From: a virus
Direction: 5' to 3' (one strand)
Length of the DNA: 43,459 nucleotides
Virus record (IMG/VR): IMGVR_UViG_3300027302_000010
Location: 1-43,459 of that record
Position numbers and translations under genes: made by a program. Of this stretch, positions 2,414 through 19,059 are shown one piece after another (positions within the stretch are counted from its first letter, which is position 1; every line of letters starts with the position of its first letter). The notes beneath the pieces were generated by a model that saw only the letters and a list, made by a program, of their open reading frames with translations, was not told where the DNA came from and searched no databases.

Positions 2414-3016
2414 ATGAACAACAAAGCGACCGGATGGGCGATCGACCCATTTACCCGAACCATAACCGCCCAGGCTCACACCTGGGAAAGCGCCAAGGCT
2501 TGGATTGGCTGCGACCTCCTGGAACGCGTCCGCCTGGACAATGGCGAACTCTGGGTGAACGAGGAGGGTTTTCTCCTCGAAGACCACAGGCCTTGGACCC
2601 TGAACCGTCGCCAGATGATCGCTGGCCGGGCGTTCCTAGTCGGTGGCGAATGGACGGATCACGACGGCCAAGACTTGCCCGAAGTGACCTGGCTTCGCAG
2701 TGGTTGCCAGGTGGAACCGCCTAAGGCCCGAGCCTACCCGATGACCCCCGATGGCCTGCGCCAGATGACCCTGGACGCCCGGGAGGAACGCGGGATGGCC
2801 GAGCTGGCCGCTGTCGGGTCCACACCTGCCGACTGGCCAAACGATGGGCCGCGCCAGGCGGTGGCAGCGCCCACCCTGGGGGATTTTGTGACTGTGGCGT
2901 CTGGCCTGACCGGAATGGTGATGGCGATGGGTGACGGATGGCTGGAAGTCCGGTTTGTTGACGGCCGAGTGATCGAGGTGCCCACTCAGAGCGTGGAGGT
3001 GGTCGATGTCGACTGA
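2414..3016 (+). CDS. Hypothetical protein, 201 residues
   Basis: I chose the ATG at 2414 (MNNKATGWAIDPFTRTI) because the frame upstream covers the hairpins and reads as non-protein. The N-terminal half, about residues 1-95, contains strand-rich sequence with VNEEGFLLEDHRPW and FLVGGEWTDHD. The C-terminal part (about 150-200) looks like a small beta-barrel (LGDFVTVASGLTGMVMAMGD, then a VEVRF-like strand), the kind of fold seen in SH3-like or KOW domains. The middle is helical. Function unknown. The stop overlaps the next start by 11 bases. Confidence 0.65.
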   Translation: MNNKATGWAIDPFTRTITAQAHTWESAKAWIGCDLLERVRLDNGELWVNEEGFLLEDHRPWTLNRRQMIAGRAFLVGGEWTDHDGQDLPEVTWLRSGCQVEPPKARAYPMTPDGLRQMTLDAREERGMAELAAVGSTPADWPNDGPRQAVAAPTLGDFVTVASGLTGMVMAMGDGWLEVRFVDGRVIEVPTQSVEVVDVD

Positions 3017-3332
3017 ATCATGGAAGGTCGTCCCGTGCCCCATCCATCACGGAAAGCACCCGTGCCACGATGCCCGGTGGGTGATGACCGCAGACGCCGA
3101 GGTTGAAATGTCCGATCACGTTCCGGATGACTGGCGACTGGCCAGCGGGTCAATCATTTGCCAGATGCGGGATGGCGATCCACGAGACGCTCACCTGGTT
3201 GCGGCCGCGCCTGAGTTGCTGGCCGCGCTGGAAATAGCACTGGAAAGCCTCGACGCCGTTGACGTACCGCAGGAGTGGGACTGCCGATCGAAGGTCCGCG
3301 CTGCCATTGCCAAGGCCCGCGCCTCACGATGA
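3006..3332 (+). CDS. Conserved phage small protein with AAPELLAALE motif
   Basis: 108 residues. The C-terminal half carries AHLVAAAPELLAALEIALES, a signature found in many small phage proteins of unknown function that end with a long helix. The N-terminal half holds Cys and His residues (CPIHHGKHPCHDARW) that could bind metal. It begins inside the last bases of the upstream gene. No enzymatic motif is visible. Confidence 0.7.
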   Translation: MSTESWKVVPCPIHHGKHPCHDARWVMTADAEVEMSDHVPDDWRLASGSIICQMRDGDPRDAHLVAAAPELLAALEIALESLDAVDVPQEWDCRSKVRAAIAKARASR

Positions 3333-3335
3333 GGA

Positions 3336-3364
3336 TTGACGGCGCGAACCGCTTCACGTAGAAC
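3336..3364 (+). promoter_or_regulatory. Candidate sigma70-type promoter, TTGACG-17-TAGAAC
   Basis: -35 TTGACG at 3336-3341, a 17-bp spacer and -10 TAGAAC at 3359-3364. The core ATTGACGGCGCG (3335-3346) is an exact 12-base match to the -35 region of the leftward recT promoter. The expected transcription start, near 3371, falls inside the following terminator stem, so a transcript from here would lack the complete hairpin and could escape it. Target genes would be the transglycosylase through the HU-like gene. Confidence 0.5.
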
Positions 3365-3368
3365 CACA

Positions 3369-3393
3369 GCCCCGGGCGACCGGGGCCTTTTTG
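3369..3393 (+). terminator. Strong intrinsic terminator
   Basis: A perfect 7-bp stem, GCCCCGG (3369-3375) with CCGGGGC (3380-3386), closes a GCGA tetraloop and is followed by CTTTTTG. It would end messages of the 609-3332 cluster. It lies only three bases before the next start codon, replacing any ribosome-binding site there. Confidence 0.85.
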
Positions 3394-3395
3394 TT

Positions 3396-3770
3396 ATGAA
3401 TGCCGAACTACTCGCCGCGCTGATCGCTGTGGAATCAAATGGGAACGACCTGGCCCGGGGACGCCATGGGGAGCTTGGTGCTCTCCAGGTGCGTCCCTGT
3501 GTCGTTCGGGACGTGAACCGCATTGCGGGCACGCACTACCGATGGGCCGAGATGACTAACCGATGGGCCGCGTTGGGGGTATTCAGAATCTACACCGGGC
3601 ACTATTGCACCGAGGCCCGGCTCGGAAGGCCCGTGACCGACCAGGACCGCGCCAGGACCTGGCATGGCGGGCCGGATGGATGGAAGAGGCGCAAGACGGC
3701 AGCGTATTGGAAACGTGTTCGGGCTCGGATGAGTGCTTCCTTGGCAGGCGGCACCGATCCGCGCCAGTAA
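3396..3770 (+). CDS. Lytic transglycosylase-like peptidoglycan hydrolase
   Basis: 124 residues, about one SLT domain. AVESNG near residue 12 holds the expected catalytic Glu; GELGALQVRP matches the conserved strand and turn of the family; WHGGPDGWKRRKTAAYWKRV near the C-terminus matches the usual A-x-W-N-G-G...Y-W-x-K-V ending, with His in place of Asn. It would cleave the glycan strand between MurNAc and GlcNAc. No signal peptide is seen, so it is either an endolysin released by the holin coded far away at 35.8 kb or a virion-associated wall-opening enzyme. The start directly follows the terminator U tract and has no Shine-Dalgarno sequence. Confidence 0.75.
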   Translation: MNAELLAALIAVESNGNDLARGRHGELGALQVRPCVVRDVNRIAGTHYRWAEMTNRWAALGVFRIYTGHYCTEARLGRPVTDQDRARTWHGGPDGWKRRKTAAYWKRVRARMSASLAGGTDPRQ

Positions 3771-3782
3771 CGCGGCATTACT

Positions 3783-4088
3783 ATGGAAGAAAACGAAACA
3801 CCAGTTCAGCCGACCTCAGAGGTCCAGCTTGCAGCATCGACGCTGGGCCGTCGCGCTCGCGGTAAACGCAAAACCATCACTGACGAAGATCGCCAGCGAC
3901 GTTCCGACCAGATGAAGGAGATCAACGAGAAGCGCCGGACGATCCGAGTTCAGGGCGTAGTCGTGAACAGTCCGGGCGGTAACACGCAGGTGAATCAGAT
4001 TGTGAAGAAGATCGAGCCCGTCACTGACCCCCGAGTCGTCGCGGCGATCGGGCGCACCGTGCGTTCACAGGGGAGGGTCGTGCAATGA
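3783..4088 (+). CDS. Basic hypothetical protein, 101 residues
   Basis: A Pro/Glu-rich N-terminus leads into a very basic stretch (RRARGKRKTITDEDRQRRSD), probably a DNA- or RNA-binding helix, followed by a strand-rich part (RTIRVQGVVVNSPGGNTQVN). Family not recognised. It lies between the transglycosylase and an HU-like gene, which fits a nucleoid-associated or packaging role, but this is inference. Its stop overlaps the next start as ATGA. Confidence 0.65.
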   Translation: MEENETPVQPTSEVQLAASTLGRRARGKRKTITDEDRQRRSDQMKEINEKRRTIRVQGVVVNSPGGNTQVNQIVKKIEPVTDPRVVAAIGRTVRSQGRVVQ

Positions 4089-4300
4089 AGCGCAAGGTCG
4101 TGATCGTGTTGGAGGATTCTGACGAAGGATTCAGCCGCCAGATGTACGTCGAGCCCCCGCTACCTGCGGATATGAACGAGACTCAGCCTACACCGGCGCT
4201 GCTCTGCGCGATGGTCGTGCATCGGGCGATTCAGGCGTTCGTGGAAGCGGGGGAACCGGAGGAGAAGCCCACGGAGGAGAAGCCCGATGACAAAAACTGA
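4085..4300 (+). CDS. Acidic hypothetical protein, 71 residues
   Basis: It starts MKRKVVIVLEDSDEG, a beta strand and acidic loop, and has a hydrophobic helix (ALLCAMVVHRAIQAFVEAG) and an acidic Glu/Pro/Lys tail (EEKPTEEKPDDKN). No family recognised. The tail is coded by the bases that overlap the next gene for 14 nt, so the two are probably coupled. Confidence 0.65.
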   Translation: MKRKVVIVLEDSDEGFSRQMYVEPPLPADMNETQPTPALLCAMVVHRAIQAFVEAGEPEEKPTEEKPDDKN

Positions 4301-4589
4301 CCTGATCCATGCGCTTGCTGAAGAGTGCGGTCTGCTGGTTCCTCACGCTCGGCAGATTGTCGATCGGATGTTCGACCTGATGATGGACGCTACATTGGCA
4401 GGTGGGTTTGAGGTGCGCGGATTCGGCGCGCTGGAGACTCGAATGACCAAGCCGATGATCGGACGGAACCCCTTGAAACCCGATGTTGAGATCGTGATCC
4501 CGCCCCGGCCGAAGGTAGTATTCCGTCCGTCGAAAGAATTTCGAGATCGGGCGATCAAAACACTTGCGGTTGTGGGTCGTAAAAAGTAG
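4287..4589 (+). CDS. HU/IHF-family DNA-bending protein
   Basis: 100 residues, the usual size. It has the helical N-terminus (TKTDLIHALAEECGL...ARQIVDRMFDLM), the strand GGFEVRGFGALETR, the arm signature GRNPLKP (family GRNPxTG), and the closing strand PPRPKVVFRPSKEFRDR. These dimers bend DNA by intercalating the arm Pro. In phages such proteins help DNA replication, recombination or packaging. It overlaps its upstream gene by 14 bases and is followed by a strong terminator, so it ends the rightward cluster. Confidence 0.9.
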   Translation: MTKTDLIHALAEECGLLVPHARQIVDRMFDLMMDATLAGGFEVRGFGALETRMTKPMIGRNPLKPDVEIVIPPRPKVVFRPSKEFRDRAIKTLAVVGRKK

Positions 4590-4626
4590 GATACCACCGC
4601 TTGTAGTGCTGTTCATAGTTGTCTAG

Positions 4627-4663
4627 CCCCCTAGGATTGAGAGGTCCTGGGGGGTTTTTTGTT
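4627..4663 (+). terminator. Intrinsic terminator after the HU-like gene
   Basis: A 10-bp stem with one G-U pair, CCCCCTAGGA (4627-4636) with TCCTGGGGGG (4645-4654), is followed by TTTTTTGTT. It ends the rightward early cluster where it meets the leftward accessory operon. Between 4664 and 4755 I see only a weak GGGTGG/CCACCC inverted repeat and no gene. Confidence 0.9.
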
Positions 4664-8982: not shown

Positions 8983-11900
8983 TTATCGAATTCCCACAGC
9001 TTTTTTCGCTTTTGCGTTCGCGATGTCTTCGATGCGGTCCAGTTGCCGTTTGGTGGCGGTCTGAGGATCCAGCTGCGAGATCCGCGTCTTGAGTTCGACC
9101 GCTCGAACCTCTTGCATCCTGGTCAACTCCTCCGGGGTAGCCTGCCGTTGCACGCGGCCGAACTGGAAGAACTTGTTGTTCTGCGGAGTCGCTGGTGTCC
9201 ATCCAGTCTTGGCCAGCACCTGGTAGGCGCGGTCAGGATCTTCGCCTCCAACGATCGCGGTGCCGCCAGTCAGGATCGACATGATGCGCTCCTGGGCACG
9301 CGGTGTACCAACTGGGTCCCCAAGGAAGTTGCGGTCCACCTTGCCGCTCCAGGGCGTCGGGACCAGGAGGTTGATGAATGTTTGATCCTTGGGGTTGAAC
9401 TCCGCGCCGGACATGGCGGTGGCCTCGCGCAGAAGAGGCTGGAACGGAATCAGCGGGCTCACGGTAGCGGCCGTGATCTTGCCCACATCTGGCGCTCCAC
9501 GATATGTGCCGGCGCCGATCATTCCAGATGCGGTGCGCCCCTGGGCGATAGCTGAGTAGGCGCCCCAGACCAACGCCCAGCCAACATCCTTCGCAGTGAG
9601 TTCGCGAGGCTCAAAGGTGAGCCCCTTCTTCTTGGCAGCAGCAGCGGCTTTATCGTTCAGCCGCTTGCGCCTGGCGATGGTGTACTGAAGCTCACCGACA
9701 GCGGCCAGCGCTGGGCGGATGAACTGAAACGGTCCAGTGTTCAGTGAAACACGCAGCATCTTCCCGTCGGGAAGATCCAACTCCATCGTGTTAGGCTTGT
9801 GGCCCTCACGCTCCATTCGATCAGCCTCCTCCTTATCGTCGGGCCATCTGGTGAAGACTCGCAGCGCGCCTGAGAGAACCAATCCAACAAACAACCCAGA
9901 AAGCCCCAGTCCCGCCGCAGCCTCGATCTTGCGCTGCACCTTGTCGGTCTCGCTCTTGTACCAGGCGGATCCCTCGAACGCGCCTGGAACGAAACCTCCA
10001 CCGGCAAACGTAAGCCCTCGGTTGATTCCGATTGCAACGGCGTTCGAGAACATCCCCAGGAGATCCGGAATTCCGATGCGCGACAGGATTTTCCCGCTGG
10101 ATTTCATTGCCTGCCCAATGACGCCGCCAGGGCCTCCCTCTTCTTCGATGTTCCATCCAATCGTAGACCGCAGGTTTTGCGTGATACCCTTGATATCTCC
10201 CGCGTCCAAACCAGCTGCCGCGATGCGTTGGTACTGCCGTGCGCGCACTACGTTCCATGCAGCAGCACTGCGATCCTTGGGTGCGATGTTCGGGTTGTCC
10301 CCGATCAGCGCCTGGGCCAACGCGTACTCCGCAATGGAGTCGCCAATGATTGTCTTTGCAGTCTTTCGTGCCTCGGCCTGACCCATGCCCTGGAGGCGCA
10401 GCTGCGATTCAACCCAAGCACCGATCTCCTGCTGCTCGGCCAGGACACCTTGGAATGCGTCGAGGGATGAGGCGAAGCGGTAGGACAACTGCGCGAGCCC
10501 AAGAATGCGAAGCACTGTAGCCTGCGCGTATTTACCGTTCTTGTAGTGCTCCGTCGCCTGCGCGTTGATGCGATCCAGCGCCCGCATTCCACTCTGGAGA
10601 CCCATGATGGTATCCTTTTCAGCGCGGCCTTTGGCGGCTTGGAGCGCAGATTTATACGCCATGTTCAGCGCGTTGAAGCGCGCTCTGTAAGCATCCTCAA
10701 GGGTAGTCGCTGTATCCTTCCAAAGGCGGAGTGTGCGATTTGGGTCCCGACTGGATACGAATCTTTGGATCGCTGTCGCACCTGCACGTGACGGCGTGTA
10801 AACAAACATCTGCGTAGCCACGTCGATCAGCTGCTTGGTGATGAAGCCGAACTTCAAGAGCGTATTTGCTGACCCGTATTCCTTGGCGGCCCTTGCCAGG
10901 TTCTGCTTGTTGCCACGGATCGGCATGGTCATCCGCGCCCAACGCATCTGGAGTTCACGCATAACATCCATGCGCTTGCCCTCGTTCATTGCGGCCTTGA
11001 TGTCGTCCGTGATGCCGGCGTTGATCTCCTCTTCGGTAGCCGTGCTGAGCTCCTGCTCCAGGCGCGCTAAGTCTCGGAAGCGGGAAACCTCCTCATCGGT
11101 CGGAACCTTCCAGCCTGATTTCTTGGCGATGCTTTGCAGGAGTGCCGCCGAGTTCATGCCGCCTGCGTTTACAAACTGCTCGATCTTCTGCCAAAGCGGA
11201 GTGCCTGGTCCGGCCTCCTCGCGTTGTTTGCCGGTGAGCTTCTTGGTCGCCTTGTCTAGCGCCTGAATGCGCGCCCGCTCAAACTTCGCCTCGAACGCTT
11301 TGGCCAGCGCAACTCCAGTCTTGTCGGCCAGCGCCTGGTCAATCGCCAGTTCTGAGAGCAACGCTTCCGAGAACGCTTGAGCCAGCTTGGCTTGCCCGGC
11401 CTGCGGGGTGTTCAGAACCCGCTTCACCAGGTCACTCATCTTGGGAACCAACCGCTGCAACGCGGGGTTCTTGGCAACGCTCTCAGCGATGCGCTGGTCC
11501 AGCAATCCGGCGCGGATACCTCCAGCGAGCCGCTCGACAGCCTTTGCACGATCGGCCGACAGCTGTGCGTCGGTCTTCGGAAGCGCAGGGTCGAAGCTGA
11601 CGTCCTTGGCGCCCACGATCTGGGAAACCACGGAGTTCTCAGCCTCCATCATCCGCTCGGTGAGGTAGGTCCAGACAGCACCCTGCATCCACTCATCGGC
11701 CAGATTCTCGGCTGCGACGATCTGGTTCAGCTTGCCGGTGAGGAACGCGAGCTTCTCGGCCCGAGTCCTGGTCGCCATGCCTGAAAGCTCGTCGGCCGTC
11801 AGGTAGGTCTTAGCGACGCGCTTTAGGAGTTTACGGGTGGGCTCAGATTGGTAGCGCGGGTCGTTTGCAATCCCAGCGTTAATCAACTTACGGAGTCGCT

Positions 11901-14900
11901 CTCCAACTGTTGTCGGTTCCGGCTTTGGTGTTAAATCAAAGAACCTACCCGTAATTTCTTTTTCAGTCTGCTGCAACCGCTCAGTAAGATAGGTCCATAC
12001 CGCCCCTTGCATCCATTCGTCCGTCAGGTTTTCAGTACCAACAATCGCGTTGAACTTAGCGGTAAGGGCCGGAAGTTTTTGAGCCTGATCAGTTGTGGCA
12101 ATTTCTTTGAACTCTTGCGTCGTAATGTATTTTCGGGCAACACGCTTGAGAAGTTCGACAGTTTTCTCACCTTTATAACGCGGGTCTTCGATGATTCCGG
12201 CGTTGATCAACCGCTGGAGACGCTCGCTCGCGCCAATCGGAGCAGCCTTAGCCTTCACGTCCAGGAAGTTATTCAGCACGCGCTGGCGGGCCAGCTGGAT
12301 CTGAGAACCCACATTGGCTGTAACCATCTGCATCACGCGGGCCTTGGCCTCAGGGGACGCGCCGGCTAGGTCCATCACTCCTTCGATGGCGGCCAGCTGC
12401 TCGCCGATCACGCGACTCATCTCGGCGTTGGGCTGTTGAACCAGGCGCGCCAGGTCGATCTTGGCGGGCGCCGGCGGGGCAACTTTCTTCGGCCCGAACT
12501 GCGTTCCCTTGAACCGGCCGCGAATCACGTCCTGGGCGAGCTTCAGGGTGGTCGGCGAGTAGTTCAGGAACCCATCACGAATCGTGCGCCAGTGAGCGTA
12601 CTGCGGCAGGTCGAGGCCCTCCTCGATTGCTTCTGGATCCGGATCTTCTTTGGCATCCATGGCTTCCTGATACTGAGCGCGAAGCTCTTCGTTGCCAACC
12701 GCTCGGGCCATCATGATGTTCCAGCCCGCGTTGAACTCGGCCTGCTTGACGGCATCCTCAGTAGCCTTCTGCACCTTGGCCTGCGTGGCCGGTCGGGTCA
12801 TTAGCCCCAGGCGTTCGTCGGGAGTGAGCTTGCGATTTGCAGGTTTGGCCGGCTCGGTGACGCCAAGCGCCAGTGCGTTCTCGATGATCTGCTCGATGGC
12901 TTCATCCTCAAGTGCGCGTTGCTCTTTCGCCTTCTGGGTGGGCGCCTTCTTAGCCTTCAGGCGCGCCTGGACAGCGCGGTACACGCGGCCGCCGGTGTCG
13001 GCCAGTGCCAAGACTCCAAACCGATTCAGCATCTCCTGTAGGTCGGGCTTCTCGCCAACGATCTTCTGAATCTCGGTTTCGGTGAACTGTCCACGGAACT
13101 CAGTCATGATCTTGTCCATCACGCCCTTGACGCTCTCGCCGTTGAAGTTGTCGTAGATGGCTGAGGTGAGGAATCCACGCACGTTACGAGCCATGGCCAC
13201 GAAGTCCTTCACGGACGCCCTCAGGCTCGCCAGGTTAATACCAAACTGGGACGCCTCAGACTGACCGATCAGGTAGAGTTCATCGCGGGTCTCGGGGCTG
13301 AATGCCTCGGATGCGCCGAAGTGGTTGCGGAGCGACTGGATCAACTCTGCGATGGTATCGCTGCGACCGGCCTCCTTGGCATCTCGGATCTTGTCCTTGG
13401 CAACCTGGATCAGCTTCCTTCCCGCTTCCTCCTGGTCTACTCCATCGACAGGTGCGAACAAGGCGTCGCCCACCTGGCGGAACTTCACCCCTGCCTCATT
13501 GAACGCATCGACTGCCAGCTGGAAGCCAGCGTTCTGCACCTCGGGAGTCCGGGATCGGCGCCCAGCAACCGTATCCTCGTATGCGCCACGTTTGGTGGTC
13601 ACAGGTTGGCCGGGCGTGGTGTAGATCATACCGAAGTCGGTAGCCGCACGCTCAATGAGACCAACCAACCGGTTAGACAACTCGGCATCATTGACAGGGT
13701 CATTTGGGTAACTTTGCCGTGCCTGTACAACCGCCTGGCGAATTGCGCGATCCACAGCCATGCCGGTGCGAATCAACCCCTTGGCGATCTGAAGGGCCAG
13801 CTTCGCCAGCGGCGTTAAAAGCAACGGATCCGAGTATTGATTTTCGTCGATGTTCCTAGTGATCTGATCAATGGCATCAATCGCTGATTTGCCGGCCCGT
13901 TGAATCGGGCTTTCGTCAAAGAGATTCATCTGCGCCTTATCCTGGGCGGCCTTGGCTTCAGCAGCGGCGCGGGCCTCGGCTTGGGCTTTTTCTCGCCTGG
14001 CCTCAACATCAATCCCCTCTTCGCCAGTAAGCGTGATCTGCTCAGCTTGCGTGCTAGCGAGAAGGTCGCCCTGGTTTTCTTTTTCTGTAAGGCGTGGTCT
14101 GCGTGGGCCTGGTCCGGTTTCTCCGGGGCCGCCGCCTGAAGGCCCACCTTGATTAGGTGGTCGATCAACAAACAGCGTGTCGTATTCCGTCAGCTGCTGA
14201 ACGCCGAATTTTTCGCCATCGCGAATCGTGTAGCCTCCCTCTGGAGTGACAGCTGTAACCTCGAATTGCTCACCTTGGACCGAAAACTTGTCTCCCAGCG
14301 CAAGGCTTCCAACTGAGATTTGAACAGGCCCGTCCGGCTCGCCGGCGCGCTGCATCCCTTCTGTCTGGGCATCAACGAAGGCTTCATCCTGCGCCTGCAA
14401 CATCGCTTCTTCGGCTCCAGCGGCTGCGGCTTTGGCTTCCTTCCGCGCCTCGGCAGTGTCGCCTTCGCGCCCGCGTGCTGCCTTCTCTATCTCGGCCCAG
14501 AACTCAGCAACCGTCATATCTCCGTACTTGCCAGGATTTTCCATGGCGAGTTCCTGAAGCAACACGTCGGGCTGGTTCCGGCTGGCGGTTCCACGCGACC
14601 TGCCTGCGAAGATTTTGTTGAAGAACGGCTTCAGCCTCGGAGCGTCATCATAGAGGCTCTTGATCGCATCCAGTCGGCCCTCCTTCTTGGCCTGCGACCT
14701 GGACATGACGCCGCCCAGATTGATGATGTCATCCAGAATGTCGCCTCGGAACGTCCATTCGCGGGCCTTCTTGGTCTTCGGTGCGGCAGCTGGAGCGGGA
14801 GCCGGGGGCGCAACCTTAGGCTCCTCCTTCGTCAGGTCCTTCTTAGCTGCTTCAGCAGCATTAGCCTCCGAGAACGACTCATCCTCGAAATTGAAGTTCT

Positions 14901-17900
14901 TGATGTTGGCAGCAGTAGCGCCGGCTTCTCCTTGAACCAGCGCGCCCATGTCCCTCATGCGGCCACCAACCCGCTGCGCCAATTCCCGCTCGAACGGAAT
15001 GTTGTCAGCAAAGAGCCACATCATCTGAGCTTTGCTCTTGAGGCCGTATCGGGCGGAACGCAGTGATACCTGCTCAACCTGGGTGGCAGTCCACGGCAGG
15101 TTGACATTGATCTGGGTTGTCGGATGAGTGCCGGTCTTGTCGTGCAGTGACAAGCCGGTGCCTCCCTTAGCCATGGTGGCGACCAGGACCATAGGTTGCT
15201 TTCCGCGCCATTCTTCGAGGTTCTTCTGGGCTTGGGAATCTGGAATGGAGCCAGTGAAGATCGCGACGTTCTGTGCCCCAATCTCGCGTTTAATGACATC
15301 TTCAGCAGACGGTATCTCGATAGCCGAGACGCCAACCTTGTCCATCGTGGACTCCAGAAGGTTGATCAGTCCGTCTGACAGCAAACCAGGGTAATCGCTT
15401 CTCCTAGGCGATTCACCGCCCATCATTTTAGCCAGCGCCTTGGCGCGCTTAAATTCCTGCTGGAGACGGCGCTGTTCGTTGATGTCGATGGTTCTCTCCG
15501 CCTTGGTCTCAACGAAGATGATCGGCCAACGGCCAGCATTCAAAGCTCGCCATGCCTCGTTGATCGCGTTTCCAACCTTCGACGCTTCCAGCAGGCGCTT
15601 CTTGTAGTTGATCACCCACATCTTGTCCGTACCGTCTAGCGAGCCCTTTTGGTTTTCCGCTTCGTCGGAGAACGCGTTGTAGATGTCGGTCCATTTCTGG
15701 TTACCCTTGATAGCCACCAGACGCGAATCAACTTGATCCGCCGGCAGCCGGGTCTTTCGGGCCGTGAAGATGCCCTCCTTTCGGAAGAAGTTTCTCGCCG
15801 CAATTTGATCCTGCTCGTTGGTCTTGGTCGGAAGCCAAACGGTTCTCACTACCTGACCGTCTTTTTTGATCGGGGTCGCTCCGTATGCCGCAGCGAACTG
15901 TTTGTAGTCACCGTTGAACGAATCAAAGATTCCAGTGTTCAGCAGGTAGGCTGTCTGAGTCGGGTTCTCGAACGGCGTTGCAGTCGAGAAGATTGGGAAC
16001 TTGGTTTGCTGGATCCACTCCTGAGCCTTCTTGGCCTGCTCTGATCCGCTTCCAGCCAGGTTCTTGATCGCGTGCGCTTCGTCGAAGATTATCACGTCTG
16101 AGTCTTCCGCTGGGAGATCCTTCATCTCCGAGTAGGTGATGAACTTTACGGGTCCGAGATTGTAGGCCTTGAGATCCTGCTGGATCTGTTTGATCAGACC
16201 CCGGTTGAGGGTAACGTAGATGATCTTGCGGGCGAAACGGTCCTGCATCTCGCGAATACCAGCCCCAAGCACGAAGGTCTTTCCGGTTCCAGGTGCGCTG
16301 GAAAGCATGAAGAATGGGCGCTTGGTTGCAAACGCTTGGACCATGAGGGCTGCATCTTCAATCTGCTCATCCCCAACTTCCCTTGGGATCCCAAAGTCTT
16401 CACCCTGTCGGATAAGCTCCTGGGTTTCTACGCTAAGATAGTTGTCAACGCCTCCATCCAATCCGCTTCGGTCGGGCCGGTTGTCCGCATCCTCTCGGAG
16501 TTTTCGGAGTTCAACATCACGGGAATAAGCCGGGCTACCACTTCTTTGTCCGCCAGCAACCCCTGAATCAGCTCTTGATCGCTCGATAAACTGCCCAAGA
16601 CCGGCGGCAGAGATGGTGTAGGTGCGGCTGTCTTTGGAATACCGTCCACCAGCGGCGCGGAGGTCGTCCTGGCGGTCGTAAGTTTTGCCCCGGAGGGTGA
16701 TGCTGCCATCCGGGTTCTGCTGAGCGGTGATCTTAAGGCCAGTGAGGAAGGATTGGTTTTCATCGGTGAGGATTGCTTCAGCTTTCGCTTTCTCTTCTGT
16801 GACCGCGTTCTGGTATTCCGGCAGTGAATTGATGTAGTCGCCAACTTGCCGAGTGCGTGATCCTGGCGCGGCGCTCCTGGTGCTTCTGACCAGCCATGCG
16901 GCGTAGTCTGGCTGCTGCGCAAGGAGGTCTTTGACCAGGAGGTTGGAATGTTTTCCGAATCCAACGGTTTGGTTGGCGATCGGGTTTTGAGGTGACGGGG
17001 CGGGCGCGGGCCGAGGTGCGGGGGTTGGTTTGGGTGCAGCTGGCGCAGCGGCCGGCGCCGGTGTCACTGGACCCGGCTCATTAAAATCCAGCGTCACGCC
17101 CTTGCCAGCGTTCCTGAACACGCGAACCGGTGCGCCGCTGGAAATCTTCTGAAGAGCGTTGTCGAGCGCCTTCTCAGAAGACGCGTCTATCGTGACATCC
17201 TGGTCAACCTTGATGGTGTACTTAGGCGATGATCCGCGCTCGTCAGGCGTTCCAACTATCGATTTAGCGAACGCGATGATGTCCCCAGTATCGCGATCAA
17301 TCATGCCATCCACCTTGCGATCCTGGAACGGGAAGGTGCGTGAGGTTACAGGAGCGACTGGTGCGGCAGCAGGAGTAGGGGTAGCAGGCGCAACCGGGGT
17401 TTCTGCCGGCGTAGCTGGAACCTCAGCTGGCGTAGCAGCGAACGCTGGTTGCACCCCAGCAGTCGTGTCAATTTTGACCCATCCGTTTACCTCATCGAAC
17501 TGGAACCCAGCATTTTGCAGCTGGCGAATACGGCGAACATAATCCTCGAAACGGGTTATTTCTTCTTCATTGAGAATATCGGTAGCATCACCCTCTCCGA
17601 TAGCATTAACCATTGCAAGGTACTCCTGCGTATCCTCAATGCTTAGCGGCTGGACTTCGGTGGGAGCGGCGGGAGTTGACGTTTCAGAGGCAGCAACCGT
17701 CTCGGGCGCAACAGCAGTAACCTCGACCGGAGTCTCCTCATCAACAACATCCGTCTCCAGAGCTATGTCTGGAATCTTGGCTTCTTCCCCAGGAGCGCCA
17801 CCGGTCACGGTCGGCGGAACGATGTTAATCGGCCCGGAAGGAGCGCCGCCTGAGTTGATGCCGGCGAGAGTGGCTGTCGCGTTGGGGAGGAGTTCCGCGT

Positions 17901-19059
17901 TATTTCCTCCGACTGAGGAGCGCGCAGCTGGGTCTTCGTTAAGGAGGTCCAGAATGCTTCCTGGCTCAGGTTCCGTAAACGGCTGCCCTGCGACTATCCT
18001 GTTATTGATTTCGTTGATCTGTTGATCCGAAAGCGGTCCTTCAGCCAATCTGGTGTCTCGGAATTCCTGAAGCCTATCCAGTCGATTCTTCCGCAACTTG
18101 GATCCAAGCAACGCCAAAGGAATCGAGGTAATGGCTCCAACGGTTCCACCAACCCCAGATGCGTCCAGAACTCCGGCCGTGAACTCTGCCTCTGGATTGT
18201 AAGCCATCTCACTGACGTTTCCACCTACCTGTTCCAGTCCCTCTTGGGCAAATTCCCCGACTGTAGGCTTCACGCCCTGCTTGGCGAAATACCCGGCAAG
18301 CTTCTTGGTGTTCTCAACAGTCTGTCCAGCGGCGAGCTTGGGGATAAGTTTTCCGCCACCCTGGGTGATTTGCTTGAGACCAGGAACTACGCCTAGGAAT
18401 CGCTCGGTTGCATAACCCAGCGGTGCGTTGAGTCCGAACTGAAGCGCCTGTTGGTACTTCTTCTCCTCCTGCAACCGGCTTGCCTCAGCGCCATTTCCAG
18501 CTGCCATCGCCTCCGCGATCTTGTTGTCGTAGAAACGCCCCGCTTTTTCCGCAGCATCCTCAGCAGTGCTACCTGCGTAGATTGCTGGTCCGAGATAAGG
18601 GATGAACGAGGTTGCCGACGATCCGATTCCGGAACCCACCTGAGTAAGAAAATCCTGCTCACGCAATGGGCTGACCGGAAACATCTTCTCGGCGCCGCGT
18701 TGAAGGGACTCGCCCGCCTGATACAGACCTGTCTGCTCAACTGGAACAGGTGCAGGTTTCTCGACTGGTGTAACAGTTTCTGGACCAAGGAAAGTCGATT
18801 CGGCTTGCTGCCAAATTGGAATTCCCGTTTCAGGGTTTACATCGGGAGGCTGAAGCCAATCGGTGAGGCGCGCCGCCGCTTTCATGGCTTTGCCGATTGT
18901 ACGTGGAGGCTCACGCACTGTCGCTGCGCCAGCGGCCCCTAAAGCACCCTGCTTAGACTGCTCGTAGAAATTCCTCGTTGCTTCCAGGACCGCATCGTCA
19001 CTGAGGTCGTCCGGAAACGAGAGGCGAGCTACATCTGGAATCTCAACGATGCGTGGCAT
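8983..19059 (-). CDS. Giant polyvalent protein with internal SF2/SNF2-type helicase
   Basis: 3358 residues, 23% of the window. Order: N-terminal Gly/Ala-rich hydrophobic segments (about 140-330); Pro-rich linkers (about 445-700); a stretch like the exonuclease X C-terminal domain (GFGKHSNLLVKDLL, about 702); an AAGGRYS segment (about 804); then a full helicase with APGTGKT (922-928), DEAH (993-996), STATP and EQVSLRSARYG (to about 1339). A 108-residue tandem repeat follows (about 2270-2485). Near 3050 a hydrophobic segment (GLSGLFVGLVLSGALRVF) precedes a basic C-terminus. Polyvalent proteins of this type are known to enter the cell with phage DNA. Its place after two ejection-type proteins supports virion location; an ATP-driven role in DNA entry or defence evasion is inference. 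Confidence 0.85.
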   Translation of the reverse strand: MPRIVEIPDVARLSFPDDLSDDAVLEATRNFYEQSKQGALGAAGAATVREPPRTIGKAMKAAARLTDWLQPPDVNPETGIPIWQQAESTFLGPETVTPVEKPAPVPVEQTGLYQAGESLQRGAEKMFPVSPLREQDFLTQVGSGIGSSATSFIPYLGPAIYAGSTAEDAAEKAGRFYDNKIAEAMAAGNGAEASRLQEEKKYQQALQFGLNAPLGYATERFLGVVPGLKQITQGGGKLIPKLAAGQTVENTKKLAGYFAKQGVKPTVGEFAQEGLEQVGGNVSEMAYNPEAEFTAGVLDASGVGGTVGAITSIPLALLGSKLRKNRLDRLQEFRDTRLAEGPLSDQQINEINNRIVAGQPFTEPEPGSILDLLNEDPAARSSVGGNNAELLPNATATLAGINSGGAPSGPINIVPPTVTGGAPGEEAKIPDIALETDVVDEETPVEVTAVAPETVAASETSTPAAPTEVQPLSIEDTQEYLAMVNAIGEGDATDILNEEEITRFEDYVRRIRQLQNAGFQFDEVNGWVKIDTTAGVQPAFAATPAEVPATPAETPVAPATPTPAAAPVAPVTSRTFPFQDRKVDGMIDRDTGDIIAFAKSIVGTPDERGSSPKYTIKVDQDVTIDASSEKALDNALQKISSGAPVRVFRNAGKGVTLDFNEPGPVTPAPAAAPAAPKPTPAPRPAPAPSPQNPIANQTVGFGKHSNLLVKDLLAQQPDYAAWLVRSTRSAAPGSRTRQVGDYINSLPEYQNAVTEEKAKAEAILTDENQSFLTGLKITAQQNPDGSITLRGKTYDRQDDLRAAGGRYSKDSRTYTISAAGLGQFIERSRADSGVAGGQRSGSPAYSRDVELRKLREDADNRPDRSGLDGGVDNYLSVETQELIRQGEDFGIPREVGDEQIEDAALMVQAFATKRPFFMLSSAPGTGKTFVLGAGIREMQDRFARKIIYVTLNRGLIKQIQQDLKAYNLGPVKFITYSEMKDLPAEDSDVIIFDEAHAIKNLAGSGSEQAKKAQEWIQQTKFPIFSTATPFENPTQTAYLLNTGIFDSFNGDYKQFAAAYGATPIKKDGQVVRTVWLPTKTNEQDQIAARNFFRKEGIFTARKTRLPADQVDSRLVAIKGNQKWTDIYNAFSDEAENQKGSLDGTDKMWVINYKKRLLEASKVGNAINEAWRALNAGRWPIIFVETKAERTIDINEQRRLQQEFKRAKALAKMMGGESPRRSDYPGLLSDGLINLLESTMDKVGVSAIEIPSAEDVIKREIGAQNVAIFTGSIPDSQAQKNLEEWRGKQPMVLVATMAKGGTGLSLHDKTGTHPTTQINVNLPWTATQVEQVSLRSARYGLKSKAQMMWLFADNIPFERELAQRVGGRMRDMGALVQGEAGATAANIKNFNFEDESFSEANAAEAAKKDLTKEEPKVAPPAPAPAAAPKTKKAREWTFRGDILDDIINLGGVMSRSQAKKEGRLDAIKSLYDDAPRLKPFFNKIFAGRSRGTASRNQPDVLLQELAMENPGKYGDMTVAEFWAEIEKAARGREGDTAEARKEAKAAAAGAEEAMLQAQDEAFVDAQTEGMQRAGEPDGPVQISVGSLALGDKFSVQGEQFEVTAVTPEGGYTIRDGEKFGVQQLTEYDTLFVDRPPNQGGPSGGGPGETGPGPRRPRLTEKENQGDLLASTQAEQITLTGEEGIDVEARREKAQAEARAAAEAKAAQDKAQMNLFDESPIQRAGKSAIDAIDQITRNIDENQYSDPLLLTPLAKLALQIAKGLIRTGMAVDRAIRQAVVQARQSYPNDPVNDAELSNRLVGLIERAATDFGMIYTTPGQPVTTKRGAYEDTVAGRRSRTPEVQNAGFQLAVDAFNEAGVKFRQVGDALFAPVDGVDQEEAGRKLIQVAKDKIRDAKEAGRSDTIAELIQSLRNHFGASEAFSPETRDELYLIGQSEASQFGINLASLRASVKDFVAMARNVRGFLTSAIYDNFNGESVKGVMDKIMTEFRGQFTETEIQKIVGEKPDLQEMLNRFGVLALADTGGRVYRAVQARLKAKKAPTQKAKEQRALEDEAIEQIIENALALGVTEPAKPANRKLTPDERLGLMTRPATQAKVQKATEDAVKQAEFNAGWNIMMARAVGNEELRAQYQEAMDAKEDPDPEAIEEGLDLPQYAHWRTIRDGFLNYSPTTLKLAQDVIRGRFKGTQFGPKKVAPPAPAKIDLARLVQQPNAEMSRVIGEQLAAIEGVMDLAGASPEAKARVMQMVTANVGSQIQLARQRVLNNFLDVKAKAAPIGASERLQRLINAGIIEDPRYKGEKTVELLKRVARKYITTQEFKEIATTDQAQKLPALTAKFNAIVGTENLTDEWMQGAVWTYLTERLQQTEKEITGRFFDLTPKPEPTTVGERLRKLINAGIANDPRYQSEPTRKLLKRVAKTYLTADELSGMATRTRAEKLAFLTGKLNQIVAAENLADEWMQGAVWTYLTERMMEAENSVVSQIVGAKDVSFDPALPKTDAQLSADRAKAVERLAGGIRAGLLDQRIAESVAKNPALQRLVPKMSDLVKRVLNTPQAGQAKLAQAFSEALLSELAIDQALADKTGVALAKAFEAKFERARIQALDKATKKLTGKQREEAGPGTPLWQKIEQFVNAGGMNSAALLQSIAKKSGWKVPTDEEVSRFRDLARLEQELSTATEEEINAGITDDIKAAMNEGKRMDVMRELQMRWARMTMPIRGNKQNLARAAKEYGSANTLLKFGFITKQLIDVATQMFVYTPSRAGATAIQRFVSSRDPNRTLRLWKDTATTLEDAYRARFNALNMAYKSALQAAKGRAEKDTIMGLQSGMRALDRINAQATEHYKNGKYAQATVLRILGLAQLSYRFASSLDAFQGVLAEQQEIGAWVESQLRLQGMGQAEARKTAKTIIGDSIAEYALAQALIGDNPNIAPKDRSAAAWNVVRARQYQRIAAAGLDAGDIKGITQNLRSTIGWNIEEEGGPGGVIGQAMKSSGKILSRIGIPDLLGMFSNAVAIGINRGLTFAGGGFVPGAFEGSAWYKSETDKVQRKIEAAAGLGLSGLFVGLVLSGALRVFTRWPDDKEEADRMEREGHKPNTMELDLPDGKMLRVSLNTGPFQFIRPALAAVGELQYTIARRKRLNDKAAAAAKKKGLTFEPRELTAKDVGWALVWGAYSAIAQGRTASGMIGAGTYRGAPDVGKITAATVSPLIPFQPLLREATAMSGAEFNPKDQTFINLLVPTPWSGKVDRNFLGDPVGTPRAQERIMSILTGGTAIVGGEDPDRAYQVLAKTGWTPATPQNNKFFQFGRVQRQATPEELTRMQEVRAVELKTRISQLDPQTATKRQLDRIEDIANAKAKKAVGIR
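11600..12255 (-). repeat. Tandem 108-residue repeat inside the giant gene
   Basis: Two adjacent copies with a period of 324 bp (LINAG is coded at 12196-12210 and again at 11872-11886). Both carry ERL..LINAG, DPRY, LLKRVA and DEWMQGAVWTYLTER. The frame is kept across the junction. Copy 1 and the copy 1/2 boundary are AT-rich compared with the rest of the gene. Confidence 0.85.

Follow-up and report, generated by a model that had tools for sequence, protein, structure and literature searches.

The hairpin and U tract at positions 3369-3392 of the window (the whole stretch analysed here, 43,459 bases, positions 1 to 43,459 of the virus record IMGVR_UViG_3300027302_000010, from an uncultured phage) are best read, and with somewhat better than even confidence on our part, as an ordinary intrinsic terminator that closes a variable module of small genes and abuts the ATG of a lysozyme-like gene, the promoter-like hexamers in front of it being what is left of a gene end. 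The terminator would end the upstream small-gene module, and transcripts of the lysozyme-like, 101-aa, 71-aa and HU-like genes beyond it would come from leak-through or from a weak promoter within the 60 bases before them. The pair TTGACG-N17-TAGAAC probably did not arise as a device for starting transcription inside a stem; it would be the 3' end that remained when an 87-aa gene was deleted, and its nominal start would fall on the stem because the leftover tail happens to adjoin the terminator.

On the plus strand, small genes run up to 4589, and past the strong terminator that follows them longer frames, to ~6.6 kb, lie on the other strand (Table 1). The TGA stop of the 108-aa gene (3330-3332) overlaps an ATG at 3329-3331, and the ten-codon frame that opens there takes in the -35-like hexamer and spacer and ends in the TAG with which the -10-like hexamer begins. 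A tRNA scan of the window found none. Elsewhere in the window, one part of a 3358-aa frame (8983-19059, minus strand) matches a helicase (phrog_16, E 7.5e-8).

Table 1. Features around the terminator and in the distal gene cassette (window positions)
Feature	Position	Strand	Remarks
Upstream small gene	3006-3332	+	108 aa; phrog_1273 family (unknown function), E 1.6e-10
Ten-codon frame ATG..TAG (MRIDGANRFT)	3329-3361	+	Probable 3' remnant of an 87-aa gene found intact in some relatives
-35-like TTGACG	3336-3341	+	5/6 consensus match
-10-like TAGAAC	3359-3364	+	4/6 match, without the last T; missing from the scanner list
Terminator stem-loop	3369-3386	+	7 GC pairs, GCGA loop
Terminator U tract	3388-3392	+	T5
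SLT/lysozyme-like gene	3396-3770	+	124 aa; weak Pfam SLT match, E 0.0099, below the curated cut-off
101-aa gene of distal cassette	3783-4088	+
71-aa gene of distal cassette	4085-4300	+
HU-like DNA-binding protein gene	4287-4589	+	Bac_DNA_binding, E 2.1e-16
Strong terminator after HU-like gene	4625-4656	+	-24.4 kcal/mol, z -4.03, 0/200 shuffles as good

As a sequence, the terminator looks real. A stable, all-GC stem of seven pairs (GCCCCGG and CCGGGGC around the loop) is followed directly, after a lone C at 3387, by a T tract that ends three bases before the lysozyme-like ATG (3396-3398). The fold of 3360-3400 reaches -16.9 kcal/mol (z -2.37, with 7 of 200 shuffles as good), and among the terminator-like matches of three window scans only this hairpin and the one after the HU-like gene have seven GC pairs. 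A score of the d'Aubenton-Carafa form is 35.8, rising to 62.9 if C3387 is disregarded, and was not used in the assessment. The initial annotation had placed an intrinsic terminator here, separating the upstream gene cluster from the lysozyme/HU genes, and on both counts the analysis bears it out.

The comparison with relatives draws on 85 loci: the window; the best 80 of 232 viral-contig stretches coding for relatives of the lysozyme-like protein (L002-L081); and four of the eight loci from a scan of genome contigs (L099-L102), the other four being weak matches. Three loci have too little sequence upstream of the ATG, leaving 82 that can be evaluated. The genome-contig matches are spread over Akkermansiaceae, Nitrospiraceae, Actinomycetota, Pirellula, Rhizobium and Rhizobiales, among others, and a protein search of phage records returned a single distant match, in Microcystis phage Mel-JY01 (30.7%).

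The hairpin is kept in two of these relatives in a manner that preserves its pairing. L009 and L008 each carry one 5'-arm C-to-U change, at different pairs, and both are retained as U-G; the three distinct stem sequences (window, L009 and L008), few as they are, thus offer two C-G to U-G changes and no two-sided change. The loop changes from GCGA to GCAA among the three, being a GNRA loop in L009 and L008, and the T run varies from 5 to 7, longer in these two loci. Different hairpins followed by T stand at the same spot in L014, L023 and L018. Terminator-like matches no more than 45 nt from the ATG were counted at 9 of the 82 loci (best 80 of 232 included), as against 137 of 16,400 random places, by a criterion that overlooked similar hairpins in L018 (folded) and L020 (read in the sequence); L004, L006 and L007, with the tail GATTTT, are the weak ones among the nine. 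With no such match at the remaining loci, the terminator is a local feature rather than the fixed companion of the lysozyme gene.

What the terminator accompanies is instead the replaceable upstream side, for a nearly identical HU cassette occurs both with and without it. L019 and L020 carry the distal cassette of the window, with HU proteins of 99% and 98% amino acid identity, and DNA homology to them begins at 3394/3395, just past the U tract (L020 has in addition a 42-nt match at 3191-3232). L020 has another hairpin at the spot. In L019 no terminator was called there, and the 40 bases leading up to its ATG are almost the same as in L021, where a frame stops 7 nt short of the gene. Because L019, with its 99% identical HU, lacks a terminator at this position, insulation of the HU cassette is apparently unneeded. 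An HU gene is present in 29 of 84 loci of the set (again with the best 80 of 232).

The promoter-like hexamers fare less well than the terminator. TTGACG and TAGAAC, 17 nt apart, match 9 of 12 positions of the sigma-70 consensus, which may not be that of the host. TAGAAC has the A at position 2 and ends in C where T is expected at position 6; the pair is unlisted by the promoter scan because the scan requires that last T. Of the promoter proposed at 3336-3364, then, hexamers and spacer are present, and the last base of the -10 and a place on the scanner list are not. A site of at least 9/12 is locally uncommon: 0.86% of 5000 dinucleotide-shuffled versions of 3329-3395 hold one, as do 88 of the 8680 overlapping 67-nt segments taken from both strands of the window (~1%), a rarity that favors a promoter. 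Against it, promoter-like sites are not enriched window-wide (13, versus a shuffle mean of 13.7; 3+6+4 versus 1.5+6.1+6.1 in three scans). Of 23 looser sites, 16 fall inside predicted genes, as called by a rough greedy procedure, and the pair is itself among the 16 because the procedure began the frame 3336-3770 at the pair's TTG. With scanner sites at the shuffle mean and so many looser ones intragenic, a 9/12 match was rejected as sole proof of a promoter.

Nor does the pair look well kept. Window, L002 and L009 retain the hexamers in the same arrangement, which speaks for a promoter that starts RNA in the stem; L008, on the other hand, has the same terminator but CAGCCT at the -10 (7/12), beside a 9-column gap, and L003 and L005 have the hexamers without a U-tract terminator, their nominal start lying 67 nt before the ATG (L003 reaches 10/12 with TATAAA). 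Pattern scans of the viral collection recovered the promoter-like block only in the contigs of L002, L003, L008 and L009, and block plus terminator only in those of L002 and L009. TTGACG-N17-TAGAAC appears to be a weak and poorly kept promoter match, and the view that it is a kept promoter is not supported, the more so as the hexamers look derived from a gene end.

That derivation is suggested by relatives in which the gene is still whole. In L018, L023 and L026 the frame before the lysozyme gene is ~87 aa long (106 as called in L023) and ends ..VLAVDYCGKRITVY. The leftover frame of the window reads ATG AGG ATT GAC GGC GCG AAC CGC TTC ACG TAG, so that the TTGAC of the -35 spans Ile-Asp codons and the -10 opens with the TAG stop. 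Its block ATT-GAC-GGC-GCG-AAC-CGC-TTC-ACG-TAG can be set beside ATT-GAC-CAC-GGC-AAA-CGA-TTA-ACG-TAC in L009, ATT-GAC-CAC-GCG-AAC-CGC-TTA-CCG-TAT in L003, ATT-GAC-CGA-CCC-GCC-AAG-CGG-TTT-ACG-ATC-CTC-TGA in L004 and, at the end of the 87-aa gene in L018, GTT-GAC-TAC-TGC-GGC-AAG-CGG-ATT-ACG-GTT-TAC-TGA; CTT-GAC and GTT-GAC occupy the same position in L005 and L008, respectively. The gene-end match is anchored by L004, which retains the sequence lying after the gene in L010. In L100, where the upstream frame has an ending like that of L012, the corresponding sequence is GTG-GAC-TAC-CAC-GCT-AAA-CGG (by eye): Val-Asp is retained and TTGAC is not, which is what coding constraint predicts.

In 14 of 18 block-to-gene alignments, which are not independent, the best match falls within the final 39 nt of a gene 264-267 nt long, and in only 4 of the 18 comparisons do 12 or fewer of 500 shuffles do as well. 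Aligned directly with three genes, the window block gives no significant match (472, 226 and 287 of 500 shuffles score as well), and the codon-origin claim therefore rests on a chain through the relatives. All six remnant blocks hold TTGAC, and five of them score 9 or 10 of 12; none of the six gene-end blocks exceeds 8. The presence of TTGAC is here no test, because strings containing it were used to pick the blocks; such scores, in a few cases so picked, are what drift towards a promoter after gene loss would produce. TTGAC seems to go back to Val/Ile-Asp codons in the tail of the 87-aa gene family, and we infer that the change ran from gene tail to promoter-like sequence rather than in reverse.

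Chief among the alternatives is the one that the initial annotation put forward, namely that the 3336-3364 promoter starts its RNA within the stem, so that upstream RNA stops at the hairpin, new RNA escapes it, and the lysozyme/HU genes are insulated without a gap. Its arithmetic is right: seven bases after the -10 lies 3371, the third base of the stem, and the ATG does follow the U tract by three bases, for a predicted leader of 25 nt. The corollary that new messages would lack the 5' arm does not follow, because a start at 3371 removes only two of the seven arm bases, leaving CCCGG/CCGGG with its GCGA loop, a GC hairpin of five pairs at -9.2 kcal/mol; such a transcript would not be hairpin-free. 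From 3372 four pairs remain (-5.9 kcal/mol), and only from 3373 on is the original hairpin nearly gone. The nominal start is, moreover, a C within the C run 3370-3373, which also weighs against the proposal; of the nearest purines, a start at G3369 keeps the whole stem and one at G3374 loses five of the seven arm bases. RNA begun at 3371 would probably terminate less well, given the greater distance from stem to T tract. A nominal start in the stem occurs only in the window, L002 and L009 (2, 2 and 3 bases past the first called stem base), that is, at 3 of 82 loci with the best 80 of 232 among them. We regard this mechanism as unlikely: geometrically half right, and with too little behind it to be claimed.

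A further point in its favor comes from the relatives at large. In the 110 nt before the lysozyme gene, sites of at least 9/12 occur at 13 of the 82 loci (best 80 of 232 included) and in 7 of 24 sequence clusters, against a background of 2.5% both at random places (205/8200) and upstream of other ORFs (17/688). Independent cases number fewer than 13, because some loci share ancestry: five of the 13 have TTGAC-N17-TANAAM in common, and TTGGCA-N18-TAAAAC or TAGAAA precedes the gene in L038, L040, L046, L069, L073 and L074. Given this upstream enrichment, we consider a promoter in the stretch before the lysozyme-like gene a fair possibility. In the TTGGCA group the hexamer seems by eye to lie within the end of an upstream frame, a possible second case of -35-like codons.

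A bolder version would join the two ideas. A deletion that left the gene tail beside the terminator might have made a start-in-stem unit in one shot, the Val/Ile-Asp codons becoming the -35, the stop becoming the start of the -10, and stem-started RNA escaping termination; window, L002 and L009 would then keep the unit, and L008 would have lost it. We hold this to be quite improbable. Were the unit active, it would insulate adjacent phage genes compactly and show clearly how one deletion can turn coding DNA into regulatory DNA. As the evidence stands, the lesson is one of caution, in that promoter-like hexamers next to a terminator may be residue of a gene end, which relatives reveal and a single sequence cannot.

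The region might also work as an attenuator, in which a partial terminator passes a set fraction of transcripts, or passes all of them late in infection under an antitermination factor, with no local promoter. A single-strand cluster with an internal terminator would suit such a scheme, as would L021 and L024, which lack the terminator and whose upstream frame ends 7 nt before the gene in the manner of a plain operon; an Rfam search of the window at the gathering threshold gave no match, however, and we rate the scheme as distinctly unlikely. Least probable by far is a translational role, in which the 3' arm and U tract would form a ribosome standby site and the stem would limit initiation at the lysozyme-like gene: the stem does end 9 nt before the ATG, and none of four Shine-Dalgarno motifs tested (AGGA, GGAG, GAGG, AAGG) is found at this gene, but those motifs are rare at the gene throughout (3 of 83 loci, best 80 of 232 included), also where there is no hairpin, and the U tract would be left unexplained.

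The preferred reading, a terminator closing an exchangeable module, finds its closest parallel in the intrinsic (Rho-independent) terminators between operons, with which this element shares a GC stem, a short loop, a U tract, and a place behind the final gene of a cluster; it differs in that the U tract here lies three bases from the next start codon, with no gap for a separate promoter. The PeSL cassettes of T4-type phages consist of an early promoter and a stem-loop, repeated between genes of one genome. They, too, set a stem-loop and a promoter-like sequence at a boundary of shuffled phage genes, whereas here there would be no strong promoter, the promoter-like part looks coding-derived, and the unit is unrepeated: allowing up to 3 mismatches, the window contains a single copy of the promoter block and a single copy of the 3' stem portion with the T tract. 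The morons of lambdoid phages are likewise genes beside terminator signals, as a passage of PMC1524935 describes; unlike a lone inserted ORF, the lysozyme/HU cassette is common to many relatives. In the literature searched, which includes portions of PMC1524935, PMC12207403 and PMC11347151, we found no description of a phage promoter starting inside a terminator stem, which is weak evidence of absence.

Several further observations concern the sequence on either side of the lysozyme ATG. In L018-L021 and L026, which have a closely related HU cassette, DNA homology begins at that ATG (3394-3396), a sharp mosaic boundary. Two frames of L002 (694 to 63 nt before the L002 ATG) match the 108-aa gene, one with its start and the other with its end; the piece of L002 between the two matches is missing in the window, as would result from a fusion in the window or an insertion in L002. 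L004, L006, L007, L010, L016, L017 and L099 have alike a long pre-lysozyme stretch with a GC-rich inverted sequence and CCTATAGAAAC. Among L029-L081, many carry CGCATCAAATC or a near form of it directly before the lysozyme ATG, where a Shine-Dalgarno sequence would be expected, and in L034 and L036 a sequence of this type is present twice, ~31 nt apart.
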